Shown: positions 18,111 to 26,052 of the stretch, one piece after another | How positions within the stretch are numbered: position 1 is the first letter of the stretch | Layout: each line of letters opens with the position of its first letter | From: Candidatus Poribacteria bacterium | GTDB lineage: Bacteria > Poribacteria > WGA-4E > PCPOR2b | Length of the DNA: 45,421 nt | NCBI GenBank assembly: GCA_022822785.1 | Contig: JAJEAL010000114.1 | Coordinates: 1 to 45,421, forward strand | Direction: 5' to 3' | Made by a program: the position numbers and the translations under genes | The notes under the pieces: generated by a model | The model's input: the letters and a program-made list of their open reading frames with translations, nothing else | Databases searched by the model: none | Told to the model about the DNA's origin: nothing

Positions 18111-18176
18111 TAACGTGGACGGACTTTGAAAAAACTATATCAAACGACTAACTGGACGCTAACAATGGAGAAAAAT

Positions 18177-18929
18177 ATGATCCAGAAATATCGAGGTGCC
18201 TCGATTTTGAACCTTATTATGGCCGCCTGTGTGATTTTCGTTTCTTGTGGAGATGAGGGAGAAGTGGTACAACCTGAATCCCCTACCTCACAGCCGCCGA
18301 CCGCGAGTGAGCCAACCCTTGAACCTACCATCCCACAACCAGCGCAGCCAACTGAACAGACTCCTCAACCGGTTGAGCAGATGCCACAACCCCCGGAACA
18401 GCAGCAACCACAACCGGTCGAGCAGATGCCTGAACAACAGCCACCGCCGGTAGAACAGCAGCCACTACCACAACCCGAACCACCCCAGGTCGAACAGATG
18501 CAACAACCAGAGCCACCGGCTGCCCTTCCGGGAGTTCCTGATGATACCGCCGGATATGATCAGTGGCTGAAATTGAATGCTGAACCAATCCCTCCCGTTC
18601 CGGGCTTCGACCCACATAATGGAACGAAAAATGTCTATGTCAACCAAACGCGTGAGGGCATTGCGCCCAATGGTGAGCAACAGTTCCCTTATCCGGACGG
18701 CACGATTGTTGTAAAAGAAGCGATGCGCCCAGGTAAAGACTTTATCGGGCTAATCGCCGTGATGTGGAAGGAAGCAGGGACCAATCCCGCCTTTGGCGAC
18801 TGGAGATTTGAAGAATATACACGAAACGCGGCAGACGCAGAGTTCCGTCTGCTCGCTGAAGGCGCAGTCTGCACAGGGTGTCATGCAGGCGCGGCTGCTA
18901 CAGATTTTGTATTCGTACTACTTGAATAA
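18177..18929 (+). CDS. Cytochrome P460-like lipoprotein with one c-heme motif
   Basis: From ATG 18177 (GGAG six bases upstream) the protein has 250 residues. A lipoprotein signal ends at FVSCGDEG. Residues about 30-130 form a low-complexity Pro/Gln/Glu linker with repeated PQPVEQMP units. The C-terminal domain (about 135-250) resembles cytochrome P460: FPYPDGTIVVKEAMRPGKD, GLIAVMWKEAG, GDWRFEEYT and a heme site CTGCHAG, ending DFVFVLLE. P460 domains oxidise hydroxylamine or act as c-type electron carriers. It probably hangs from a membrane on the flexible linker and passes electrons. It is 63 bp upstream of the diheme-barrel gene, so likely co-transcribed. Confidence 0.82.
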   Translation: MIQKYRGASILNLIMAACVIFVSCGDEGEVVQPESPTSQPPTASEPTLEPTIPQPAQPTEQTPQPVEQMPQPPEQQQPQPVEQMPEQQPPPVEQQPLPQPEPPQVEQMQQPEPPAALPGVPDDTAGYDQWLKLNAEPIPPVPGFDPHNGTKNVYVNQTREGIAPNGEQQFPYPDGTIVVKEAMRPGKDFIGLIAVMWKEAGTNPAFGDWRFEEYTRNAADAEFRLLAEGAVCTGCHAGAAATDFVFVLLE

Positions 18930-18992
18930 TGTGCAAGAGACAATCCCGACTTTTTTCGCTTTATTACCCTTTACACATACGGAGGTCATCAA

Positions 18993-20174
18993 TTGAGTTA
19001 CAGATTTCAGTTTGCATTTTTGGTCTTTTGGCTCTGTGGGCTATTGACCTTTTCTTTCGTCTATGATAGTGGGGCGCGCCCCGAATTTGCGGCGATGGAA
19101 GACAAGGAGTGCGTTTTCTGCCACCTTGACCCCGCCGGCGGAGGACCGCGAAACGCAATCGGGCAGGTTTATGAGGATAACTATTTTGAATTTCCCGAAG
19201 ATTTCGACCCAGAGGCAATTATGGCGGAGGCGGAGGAGGTGCGCCAGCGGCTTACAATGGCAGTCAACATCCGCACCGCTTATATCAAAACACTCCATGT
19301 CAATCTCGACGGACGTGAAAGGGCAACCTGCACCTCCTGTCACTCAGCCGTTGATAGCTTTCTGCTGATGCAGGGCGAACTGACCGTTAATGCACAGGCA
19401 TCAGACAAACTCAGGCTGACTTTGTCCAACAATATGGGAGCCCCCCTCAACATGTTTGCCACGGTCGACGCTATCCCCACACACCTCTACGTCAAAGTTG
19501 GGCAATTCCGGCTTCCCTTCGGCCTTAAACAACGGGACCACAACATCTTGGTTCGTCAGGGGTATAACCTCGGTTCACACAAACGGGATGTCGGCGTCGA
19601 GGTCGGCGGCACTTACGGCAAGGTGTTCTATAACGCTGCTGTGGTCAACGGAAATCGGACTGCCGGGCAAGCCGCTGATAACAACCAACATAAAGGGTGG
19701 GTTGCAACTGCCGGCGGCACGCTAGGACCGGTCCGAGGCGGCGTCTCCTTTCTTCTTGATAGGGATAGACAGTTGGATCGTGAAATGATTGCCGGCGCGT
19801 TTTTAACTGCCGCTCTCAAAAATCTTACCCTTGAAGGCGAATTCAATTTCGGGGGCAGCTTCGGTGATGATGAGAGCATCGGCTTCAGTGATGACGACAT
19901 CGCGTCTAAGGGATATTACGCCGGCGCCAAATATCGCGTCATGCCGGAACTAATGCTCTCCGGACGTTATGGACTGTTCGATGGAGACCGCACGCTCAAA
20001 GGGGATGGTCGTCAGCGTATAACGCTAGGCGCACAATATATCTTCATGCAAAACGGATCGCTTGAGCTATTTTACTGGCTCAACTTTGCCAACGATGACC
20101 GAAATAGAGAAAATGCTGACCGACAGCTTGAAGGGACAGATCAGCTTATCTTGATGTCCCATTTTTGGTTCTAA
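18993..20174 (+). CDS. Diheme cytochrome c fused to an outer-membrane beta-barrel
   Basis: A 393-residue protein starting at TTG 18993 (GGAGG seven bases upstream). After a signal-like segment (1-28) come two c-heme sites, CVFCH (40-44) and CTSCH (113-117), within a small N-terminal domain. From about residue 125 the sequence alternates polar and aromatic strands typical of porins: HLYVKVGQFRLPFGLK, RDVGVEVGGTYGKVFY, VRGGVSFLLD, YYAGAKYRVMPELMLSGRYG, ending LILMSHFWF with the terminal phenylalanine used for barrel assembly. It suggests a one-polypeptide porin-cytochrome placing hemes at or in an outer-membrane pore. The gene follows the P460-like lipoprotein gene. The barrel portion resembles phosphate-selective porins O/P in strand style. 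Confidence 0.8.
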   Translation: MSYRFQFAFLVFWLCGLLTFSFVYDSGARPEFAAMEDKECVFCHLDPAGGGPRNAIGQVYEDNYFEFPEDFDPEAIMAEAEEVRQRLTMAVNIRTAYIKTLHVNLDGRERATCTSCHSAVDSFLLMQGELTVNAQASDKLRLTLSNNMGAPLNMFATVDAIPTHLYVKVGQFRLPFGLKQRDHNILVRQGYNLGSHKRDVGVEVGGTYGKVFYNAAVVNGNRTAGQAADNNQHKGWVATAGGTLGPVRGGVSFLLDRDRQLDREMIAGAFLTAALKNLTLEGEFNFGGSFGDDESIGFSDDDIASKGYYAGAKYRVMPELMLSGRYGLFDGDRTLKGDGRQRITLGAQYIFMQNGSLELFYWLNFANDDRNRENADRQLEGTDQLILMSHFWF

Positions 20175-20190
20175 CGCGCTCTGCGCTCAG

Positions 20191-20531
20191 GTTAAGCAAT
20201 CGTGCAACCGAAGCCGAGTTTTTTCTTGAGAACTCGGTTTCTTTTTATACTTAAGACTTACGCGGCTGGCTCATAAGTCCCCCTGACAAGGGGGATTTAG
20301 GGGGTTAAAAATCAAAAATCTACCCCCGTGTGCTAAATTGTCCTGTAAAAATTGCCGGCTCATGTTAAGCAATCGTGCAACCGAAGCCGAGTTTTTTCTT
20401 GAGAACTCGGTTTCTTTTTATACTTAAGACTTACACGGCTGGCTCATAAGTCCCCCTGACAAGGGGGATTTAGGGGGTTAAAAATCAAAAATCTACCCTC
20501 CCGTGTGCTAAATTGTCCTGTAAAAATTGCC
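20191..20531. repeat. Tandem duplication, 166 + 168 bp, in the 388-bp gap after the diheme-barrel gene
   Basis: Copy one spans 20191-20356 and copy two 20364-20531, with a period of 173 bp and only a few differences (a G/A change and a 2-bp insertion). Each copy contains a family B hairpin (20211-20246 and 20384-20419) with a T-rich tail and a family D hairpin. Two consecutive terminator-like hairpins thus separate the diheme-barrel gene from the membrane cytochrome. No gene is visible. Confidence 0.85.
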
Positions 20532-20562
20532 AAAAATGTCCTCTATAGGGAGATGAGATAGA

Positions 20563-21681
20563 ATGTCTACTGCAACCAGTACAATACTTGGACTGATTTT
20601 TCTCGGTTTGGGAAATGCCTCCGTATTCTTGATGTATAAACTATGGGGCTATCCCTTCGACCATGAGACCCGTACCAGTGCGGCACCAAAATCGCTGATG
20701 TTTATCCACCGTGCTATCGGCTATGCCTATCTAATCCTTTACATCTTCATGATGTGGCACATGGTCCCCCGCCTCTGGAACTATCAGGTGGAGCTCCCAC
20801 CGCGTACCGTGGCTCACCTAATGCTCGGTATCACAATCGGTGTGCTACTGCTAGTCAAAATTTCGATTCTCCGCTTCTTTCGACACTTTGAGGAAGCGAT
20901 GCCTTATATCGGGACAGGGCTCTTGATATGCACTTATCTGCTGATTGGTCTCTCTGTCCCCTTCACCCTGCGGGAAAGTGCCCTACGGGTAAAGAGCAAT
21001 GTCTTCAGCGATGCTAGCATTGAACGGACATATACGCGGCTACAAATGGCGGGATTGCCGCCCGATGCGCCACTTGATATGTTGGCATCGAGGCGGAAAC
21101 TGCGTGAAGGACAGGCCGTTCTACTGAAGAAGTGCGTACAGTGCCACGATTTGCGAACCATCCTAGCGCGGCCACGTACCCCACCGGATTGGGTGCGGAC
21201 CGTCGACCGGATGGCAATCAAGCCGATGATAGGGGAGCCGATTACCCTAGAAGATCAGTGGACCGTCTCAGCATATCTCATCGCTATCACACCTGAGTTG
21301 CAAGTGTCAGCGAAAGAGCAACGGAAACAACGGGTGCAAGCCAGCCAAGCGCAAAACGCGTTAGCTGTCTTAACTAATCCCGATGAAGCAGCAGATGAGG
21401 TGATCGTGAATCCCGATGAAGTGATTGTGAATCCGGATGAGGTTGAGGAGATAGATGAAACGTCAGCTGAAGAGGCTTATAACCCGGAGGATGCAAAAGA
21501 ACTGTATGAAATCACCTGCTCCCTCTGCCATGACCTTTCAGATGTTGATAATGCTCCACCCACATCGGAGGCGGAGACCACAGAACTTATCGCCCGTATG
21601 ATTGATAACGGGCTTTTCATCGAGGAAGAAGATATCAGAATCATCGCCCGCTACCTAAATGAAACCTATGTGAACCCGTGA
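20563..21681 (+). CDS. Four-helix membrane protein with two cytochrome c motifs
   Basis: A 372-residue inner-membrane protein. Hydrophobic helices lie at about 5-25, 45-68, 83-105 and 115-138; histidines in or near them (FIHRAIGY, MMWHMV, VAHLML) could bind b-type heme, as in cytochrome b561 or ferric-reductase-like proteins. After the membrane part come two single-heme domains with CVQCH (191-195) and CSLCH (319-323), joined by an acidic linker with NPDEVIVNPDEV repeats. It could transfer electrons between the quinone pool and periplasmic carriers. It is in the same direction as the P460-like and diheme-barrel genes. I do not recognise an exact named family. Confidence 0.75.
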   Translation: MSTATSTILGLIFLGLGNASVFLMYKLWGYPFDHETRTSAAPKSLMFIHRAIGYAYLILYIFMMWHMVPRLWNYQVELPPRTVAHLMLGITIGVLLLVKISILRFFRHFEEAMPYIGTGLLICTYLLIGLSVPFTLRESALRVKSNVFSDASIERTYTRLQMAGLPPDAPLDMLASRRKLREGQAVLLKKCVQCHDLRTILARPRTPPDWVRTVDRMAIKPMIGEPITLEDQWTVSAYLIAITPELQVSAKEQRKQRVQASQAQNALAVLTNPDEAADEVIVNPDEVIVNPDEVEEIDETSAEEAYNPEDAKELYEITCSLCHDLSDVDNAPPTSEAETTELIARMIDNGLFIEEEDIRIIARYLNETYVNP

Positions 21682-25387: not shown

Positions 25388-25464
25388 GCGCCCGTAGCTC
25401 AGCTGGATAGAGCACCTGACTTCTAATCAGGTGGTCGCAGGTTCGAACCCTGCCGGGCGTGCCA
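25388..25464 (+). tRNA. tRNA-Arg (anticodon TCT)
   Basis: The cloverleaf is complete. The acceptor GCGCCCG pairs with CGGGCGT (a G-T end pair). The anticodon arm reads CCTGA-CTTCTAA-TCAGG, giving TCT. A GGTTCGAACC T-arm and encoded CCA are present. Confidence 0.95.
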
Positions 25465-25474
25465 AATCTTTTAT

Positions 25475-25548
25475 GGTGGATGTAGCTCAGTCGGTAGAGC
25501 GCTTGACTGTGGATCAAGTGGCCGTGGGTTCAAATCCCATCATCCACC
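25475..25548 (+). tRNA. tRNA-His (anticodon GTG)
   Basis: The anticodon arm CTTGA-CTGTGGA-TCAAG gives GTG. The extra 5' G pairs with C73 as in histidine tRNAs. CCA is not encoded. Confidence 0.95.
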
Positions 25549-25555
25549 CTTTTTT

Positions 25556-25631
<76 letters not shown>

Positions 25632-25795
25632 TTTTTGCGAGAATGTCGTGCCTTATTATCGCATGGCGGGTGTAGCCCGGTTATCCTATGCTGATGTGGA
25701 AATCGAAGCGCCGTATTCTACGGTGATAACCGCACTCAATATAGGCTACCGTCCCCGACTAGCGCTTAACCATTCCGTAATAAAAGCAGTAACAT

Positions 25796-25869
25796 GCGTC
25801 CGTAGTTCAATTGGATAGAGCAATAGACTTCGGATCTATAAGTTGGGGGTTCGAGTCCCTCCGGGCGCA
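25796..25869 (+). tRNA. tRNA-Arg (anticodon TCG)
   Basis: The acceptor GCGTCCG pairs with CGGGCGC. The anticodon arm ATAGA-CTTCGGA-TCTAT gives TCG. CCA is not encoded. The 165 bases before it (25631-25795) hold no recognisable tRNA, although GGCGGGTGTAGCCCGGTTA near 25665 resembles a tRNA 5' half. Confidence 0.93.
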
Positions 25870-25879
25870 CTTGTCTTTG

Positions 25880-25956
25880 GCGCCGTTAGCTCAACCAGGC
25901 AGAGCATCTGACTCTTAATCAGGCGGTTGAAGGTTCGATTCCTTCACGGCGCACCA
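25880..25956 (+). tRNA. tRNA-Lys (anticodon CTT)
   Basis: The acceptor GCGCCGT pairs with ACGGCGC. The anticodon arm TCTGA-CTCTTAA-TCAGG gives CTT. CCA is encoded. Confidence 0.94.
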
Positions 25957-25965
25957 TCTTGATGC

Positions 25966-26052
25966 GGGCGGGTGTTGGAACCGGTAGACAAGATAGATTT
26001 AGGATCTATTGGGGTTTTCCCCGTGAGGGTTCAAATCCCTCCTCGCCCACCA
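25966..26052 (+). tRNA. tRNA-Leu (anticodon TAG)
   Basis: The acceptor GGGCGGG pairs with CTCGCCC. The anticodon arm ATAGA-TTTAGGA-TCTAT gives TAG. The long variable arm (TTGGGG...CCCCGT) marks a class II tRNA. CCA is encoded. It lies 32 bp before tig. Confidence 0.95.

Follow-up and report, generated by a model that had tools for sequence, protein, structure and literature searches.

Can a member of the Poribacteria pass electrons through its outer membrane on a single protein chain? The question is raised by three consecutive plus-strand genes in the window, i.e., the whole stretch of Candidatus Poribacteria DNA analysed here (45,421 nucleotides), which encode a P460-type lipoprotein, a porin with two c-type heme motifs and a membrane cytochrome (Table 1). 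A preliminary description had read these neighbours as one set that could carry electrons between the quinone pool and the cell surface. Three adjoining same-strand genes were indeed found at the place it gave, with one correction at the front: the ATG at which it began the first gene (18177) is in frame, but the homologues begin at an ATG matching 18165. Farther along the window, six tRNA genes (Arg, His, Pro, Arg, Lys and Leu, 25388-26052) are followed by genes for trigger factor, clpP, clpX and lon.

Table 1. Features of the three-gene locus, with positions counted from the first letter of the window.
Feature	Position	Strand	Remarks
P460-superfamily lipoprotein gene	18165..18929	+	PF16694, E 1.9e-12; start judged from homologues
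Lipobox Cys24 and Pro/Gln/Glu-rich tether	18246..18551	+	102 residues (30 P, 22 Q, 14 E)
P460 domain	18549..18914	+	residues 125-246
Lys180	18714..18716	+	aligned with Phe61 of McCP-beta; Lys in 50/50 homologues
Ala194	18756..18758	+	aligned with Gly82 of McCP-beta and Ala131 of NsP460; Ala in 50/50
CTGCH heme motif of P460 domain	18870..18884	+	
Diheme cytochrome-porin gene	18993..20174	+	TTG start, 393 aa
Heme 1 motif CVFCH	19110..19124	+	residues 40-44; N-terminal tail (predicted periplasmic), within ARPEFA...CVFCHLDPAGGGPRN..G
Predicted 16-strand barrel	19251..20171	+	residues 87-393, ends ...HFWF
Heme 2 motif CTSCH	19329..19343	+	residues 113-117; predicted strand 1-2 loop (first surface loop)
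Asp182-His183	19536..19541	+	predicted strand 5-6 loop
Two tandem repeat copies, each with a terminator-like hairpin	20185..20531	+	between porin and membrane cytochrome genes
Membrane cytochrome gene	20563..21681	+	four N-terminal helices, two C-terminal c-heme domains
Membrane cytochrome heme motifs	21133-21147 and 21517-21531	+	

The answer turns on the second gene. The preliminary description had proposed structure prediction of its product as a check and had held that a model lacking a barrel would tell against its reading. That objection falls away, since an AlphaFold model built on 34 homologues, with the hemes left out, has 16 strands (87-100, 123-135, 140-147, 154-160, 165-172, 199-208, 211-218, 235-244, 247-256, 263-275, 278-290, 303-317, 320-328, 341-352, 355-364 and 384-392), in which long loops alternate with short turns and the C-terminus is aromatic. 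When the model was searched with Foldseek, general porins ranked first (OmpC, OmpM1 and Omp-Pst2, E 1.9e-12 to 1.5e-11), and a PDB search with the sequence, single or as a profile, returned no match. In known porins the N-terminus is periplasmic, and if it is taken to be so here, with the long loops outside and the short turns inside, the strand order would assign heme 1 to the periplasmic tail and heme 2 to the first surface loop. Support is good for the predicted type of barrel but not for the placement of the hemes, because the mean pLDDT of the model was 59.9 (pTM 0.60) and that of the heme-2 loop was below 50. Prediction and order-wide conservation together support the earlier claim of a barrel fused to two c-hemes in a single chain. 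A second porin-like gene, heme-free and on the minus strand, lies two genes upstream of the P460 gene (15087-16313); its DcaP match was sub-threshold (E 1.1e-05), and one sister locus matches its N-terminal end only.

How such a protein relates to known systems is best seen from the conduits first. In MtrAB, MtoAB and PioAB the barrel has 26 strands and the hemes are on a decaheme subunit of their own. The Poribacteria protein resembles them in principle, in that hemes would conduct electrons through a barrel in the outer membrane, although its hemes lie in the barrel chain itself. MtrB/PioB (PF11854) was matched in 0/16 genomes, so no classical conduit of this type was seen. The preliminary description had stated that barrel and cytochrome are separate subunits in the known conduits; the statement is wrong, and the case for novelty built on it partly so, because Cyc2, an iron oxidase (PMC8406198), and Cyc572 of Leptospirillum (PMC10654088) are both fused monoheme cytochrome-porins. 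The likeness to Cyc2 is considerable: a signal peptide, an N-terminal c-heme and a 16-strand porin in a single chain (PMC8406198; here predicted, with moderate to low model confidence), an A-x-P-x-F-A stretch shortly ahead of the first CXXCH, and a porin of the OprO/OprP (Porin_O_P) type, on which Cyc2 has been modelled (PMC8406198). The differences are as specific. Cyc2 has one CXXCH whereas 34/34 of the aligned porins have two, the second in the predicted surface loop; of the Cyc2 motif AXPXFAR[Q/K][T/Y] (PMC8406198), the sequence ARPEFAAME has AXPXFA without R[Q/K][T/Y]; where Cyc2 has PXL, four residues past CXXCH (PMC8406198), the Poribacteria protein has CVFCHLDPAGGGPRN; and it has DPAGGGPRN..G after the heme and a P460 gene as its neighbour. 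Cyc572 likewise has an N-terminal CXXCH on a 16-strand porin of PorB-like topology but is monoheme and longer, a comparison made by description only (PMC10654088). Judged by its motifs, the porin is a diheme variant that resembles Cyc2 but stands apart from it and should not be filed under that name, although it may work like a fused cytochrome-porin. What sets it apart from the known fusions is the second heme and its predicted first-surface-loop position; a literature search, to which subscription papers were mostly beyond reach, found no diheme cytochrome-porin fusion described.

The porin family was present in 75/85 Poribacteria genomes, a count that takes in a few distant, monoheme or heme-free members, and in 53/56 of those of good quality. 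The 33 relatives aligned are 47-88% identical to the window protein, and the Cys and His of both CXXCH motifs are invariant in 34/34 homologues, so the motifs are not there by chance. The two heme histidines aside, the conserved His positions in these 34 are His164 and His183 alone, and the conserved Met positions are Met126 and Met388. His183 was considered as a ligand of heme 2 and rejected, being present in relatives without that heme: neither the monoheme relatives of family f7 nor G016, a relative that keeps the barrel and is missing the heme-2 stretch, departs from Asp182-His183. As heme 2 alone does not explain His183, Asp182-His183 would appear to serve heme 1 or the pore. The heme 1 motif is invariant in monoheme relatives too, while that of heme 2 is absent from them. 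Monoheme cytochrome-porins of a sister family in the same class (L135, 7063-8256; L137, 6840-7988; L138, 5088-6482) have the pattern LPRF...CHxNPxGxGxR and keep the pore-loop DH motif; they may be related to the ancestor from which the diheme form arose, and a tree meant to locate the step at which the second heme was gained or lost had long branches. Heme-free proteins that matched the porin profile weakly were Porin_O_P members (PF07396). Plasmid records held no relative of the porin gene or of the membrane cytochrome gene. Outside the phylum, a contig scan turned up no more than a similar N-terminal heme module (YARQT..CSFCHLDPAGGG), which in a Nitrospirae MAG and in Geomonas (L122, 9150-10115, and L123, 9944-10912) is fused to another kind of membrane protein, one with multiple helices; since the scan relied on two peptide patterns only, distant relatives may have been missed. 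The module thus occurs in different architectures.

The first gene was equally informative. Its product had been described as a lipoprotein with a P460-like heme domain on a long linker, and so it proved, with a lipobox, a tether whose length differs among homologues and an above-cut-off match to PF16694. The nearest solved sequences in a PDB sequence search were cytochromes c'-beta (7ead and 6hih), and with the P460/c'-beta superfamily the protein shares the domain match, the CXXCH, a Lys at the crosslink position and a Gly five residues ahead of it (PMC6427953, PMC11928373), differing in its lipid anchor and long Pro/Gln tether, in the adjoining diheme porin gene and in its lack of the distal carboxylate. 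Phe61 of McCP-beta is the residue equivalent to the crosslinking Lys of cytochromes P460 (PMC6427953), so that Lys180, as aligned, stands at the crosslink position of a P460, unlike a c'-beta, which has a hydrophobic Phe cap and no crosslink Lys; the Phe32 position of c'-beta, where the alignment is gapped, is at or near it mostly Asn (43/50). The distal-carboxylate position, in turn, is Glu or Asp in active P460 proteins, Ala131 in NsP460, which is crosslinked yet inactive, and Gly82 in McCP-beta (PMC11928373). With Lys at the one position and Ala at the other, the lipoprotein is predicted to be crosslinked and not to oxidise hydroxylamine, i.e., to be a ‘halfway house’ protein in the sense of a review (PMC11928373); hydroxylamine oxidation is unlikely because the carboxylate that hydroxylamine-oxidising P460 proteins have is absent. 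A second, divergent P460-domain gene occurs in the same genome (G000:C101:6965-7342, 34% identity). Adjacency could be judged at 52 loci with enough upstream sequence: at 45 of them the P460 gene immediately precedes the porin gene and shares its strand, and at the remaining seven it is missing from that place. In family f2 and genus g2 it is found elsewhere in the genome, and in family f4, where the porin is present, neither it nor the membrane cytochrome was matched.

The reading we prefer, at a probability of about one half, is that of a fused diheme outer-membrane cytochrome-porin that works with a P460-type lipoprotein and moves electrons across the membrane. The analysis shows the sequence architecture and its conservation, the linkage of the pair, a predicted barrel and the Lys at the crosslink position; the placement of the hemes relative to the membrane, the flow and direction of the electrons, their substrate and the part played by the lipoprotein are what we infer. 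In this scheme, heme 1 in the N-terminal tail would sit at the periplasmic mouth of the 16-strand barrel and heme 2, on the first surface loop, at or in its outer mouth. Periplasmic cytochromes and a small soluble redox partner with access to the outer mouth would exchange electrons through the porin, and the end point would be a heme-copper oxidase; a respiratory link of this kind is possible because COX1-family heme-copper oxidase genes are present in this genome and MtrB is absent. We lean slightly toward an oxidative role, as in Cyc2, with a reduced metal in solution or a small molecule as the electron donor. The tethered lipoprotein is the likely periplasmic neighbour of the porin; it would shuttle electrons or else, by binding gas (NO), protect or regulate the hemes of the porin. 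Electron transfer across the outer membrane by the diheme porin is plausible, but several matters count against it: the confidence of the barrel model is limited, the distance between the hemes may exceed the limit of about 14 A for fast electron tunnelling, G016 lacks the heme-2 motif and a sister family has heme 1 only, family f4 has the porin without a P460 match, and the pair is apart in family f2 and genus g2. A more ambitious version is put forward tentatively: the single polypeptide would be a complete two-heme outer-membrane relay in which the first surface loop keeps heme 2 within the pore. It would have arisen from a monoheme cytochrome-porin through gain of the loop heme, would be a core Poribacteria trait and would have a crosslinked P460 lipoprotein as its partner.

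The same conservation can be read differently. A porin that is near-universal and mostly single-copy in an order of heterotrophic, host-associated bacteria suits housekeeping rather than respiration, and outward electrons might serve to reduce ferric iron or another metal, which the pore would then admit as the reduced ion. An Asp182-His183 kept in a pore loop even where heme 2 is absent would fit such a metal-acquisition porin. The porin also matched NF033652, a family of siderophore porins, but weakly (E 0.048, below the cut-off and not significant), and no linked iron-transport gene was noticed near the porin in the loci inspected, whose neighbours were not exhaustively annotated. We regard this alternative as unlikely, though it fares best of the three considered. 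Somewhat less likely again is that the hemes do not transfer electrons across the membrane at all, and instead bind gas or peroxide or stabilise a plug of the porin, with the lipoprotein handling NO independently. P460/c'-beta proteins are ligand-binding hemes (PMC11928373), the solved sequences nearest to the lipoprotein are of the c'-beta type, and heme 2 can be absent, all of which is in keeping with this idea; against it, every other sampled member of the order has the heme 2 motif unchanged, a constancy beyond what a structural plug would seem to call for, and the Ala found in 50/50 lipoproteins makes an enzymatic role in hydroxylamine oxidation unlikely.

There remains the third gene, and with it the set as originally conceived. 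The product is, as had been described, a four-helix membrane protein with two c-heme domains: four N-terminal helices were predicted, and while the model (five close sequences) was of low confidence, with a mean pLDDT of 50.4, the hydrophobic stretches are clear too; CXXCH motifs occur at 191-195 and 319-323, and a cytochrome c domain was matched (PF13442, E 3.3e-07). DUF6529 was tried for the membrane part and rejected, the match of the window protein being below the cut-off. The family is present in 69/85 Poribacteria genomes. As regards linkage, of which the preliminary description had called for a survey, the trio holds together in the genus of the window and in one sister genus, and in the other families the membrane cytochrome lies far from the porin among varied neighbours. 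Judged by gene order, the conserved unit is therefore the P460-porin pair, not the trio, since the P460 gene is upstream of the porin at 45 of the 52 loci and the membrane cytochrome adjoins it in two genera only. The two repeat copies (148 nt at 97%) that part the porin and membrane cytochrome genes in this genome belong to a dispersed repeat, of which some 47 partial matches occur genome-wide. Although the membrane cytochrome gene follows on the same strand, with a gap of about 50-66 bp in some sister genomes, is linked in all examined genomes of the window's genus and in one sister genus, and is, like the other two genes, widespread in the order (family f4 being without both it and the P460 gene), a conduit from quinol through membrane cytochrome, P460 lipoprotein and diheme barrel to the surface is the least supported reading and an improbable one, given the distant and variously placed gene in the other families, the terminator-like hairpins that intervene here and the replacement by Tyr, in two homologues, of one candidate heme-b histidine (His66).

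Poribacteria are best known from marine sponges and, to our knowledge, are not known for extracellular electron transfer. The fused cytochrome-porins with one heme leave the crossing of the barrel unexplained, and a conserved heme in a surface loop would answer it with two hops; if the more ambitious version is true, the diheme porin would be a minimal, one-chain conduit. Searches with Cyc2 as the marker may miss it, because the Poribacteria genome KW1-S08_28 carries a gene of the diheme porin family, yet the six cyc2-bearing genomes of its source study were all assigned to other phyla (PMC10367259). The diheme porin may, then, be an unrecognised route for electrons across the outer membrane and, if so, Poribacteria would exchange electrons with their surroundings.
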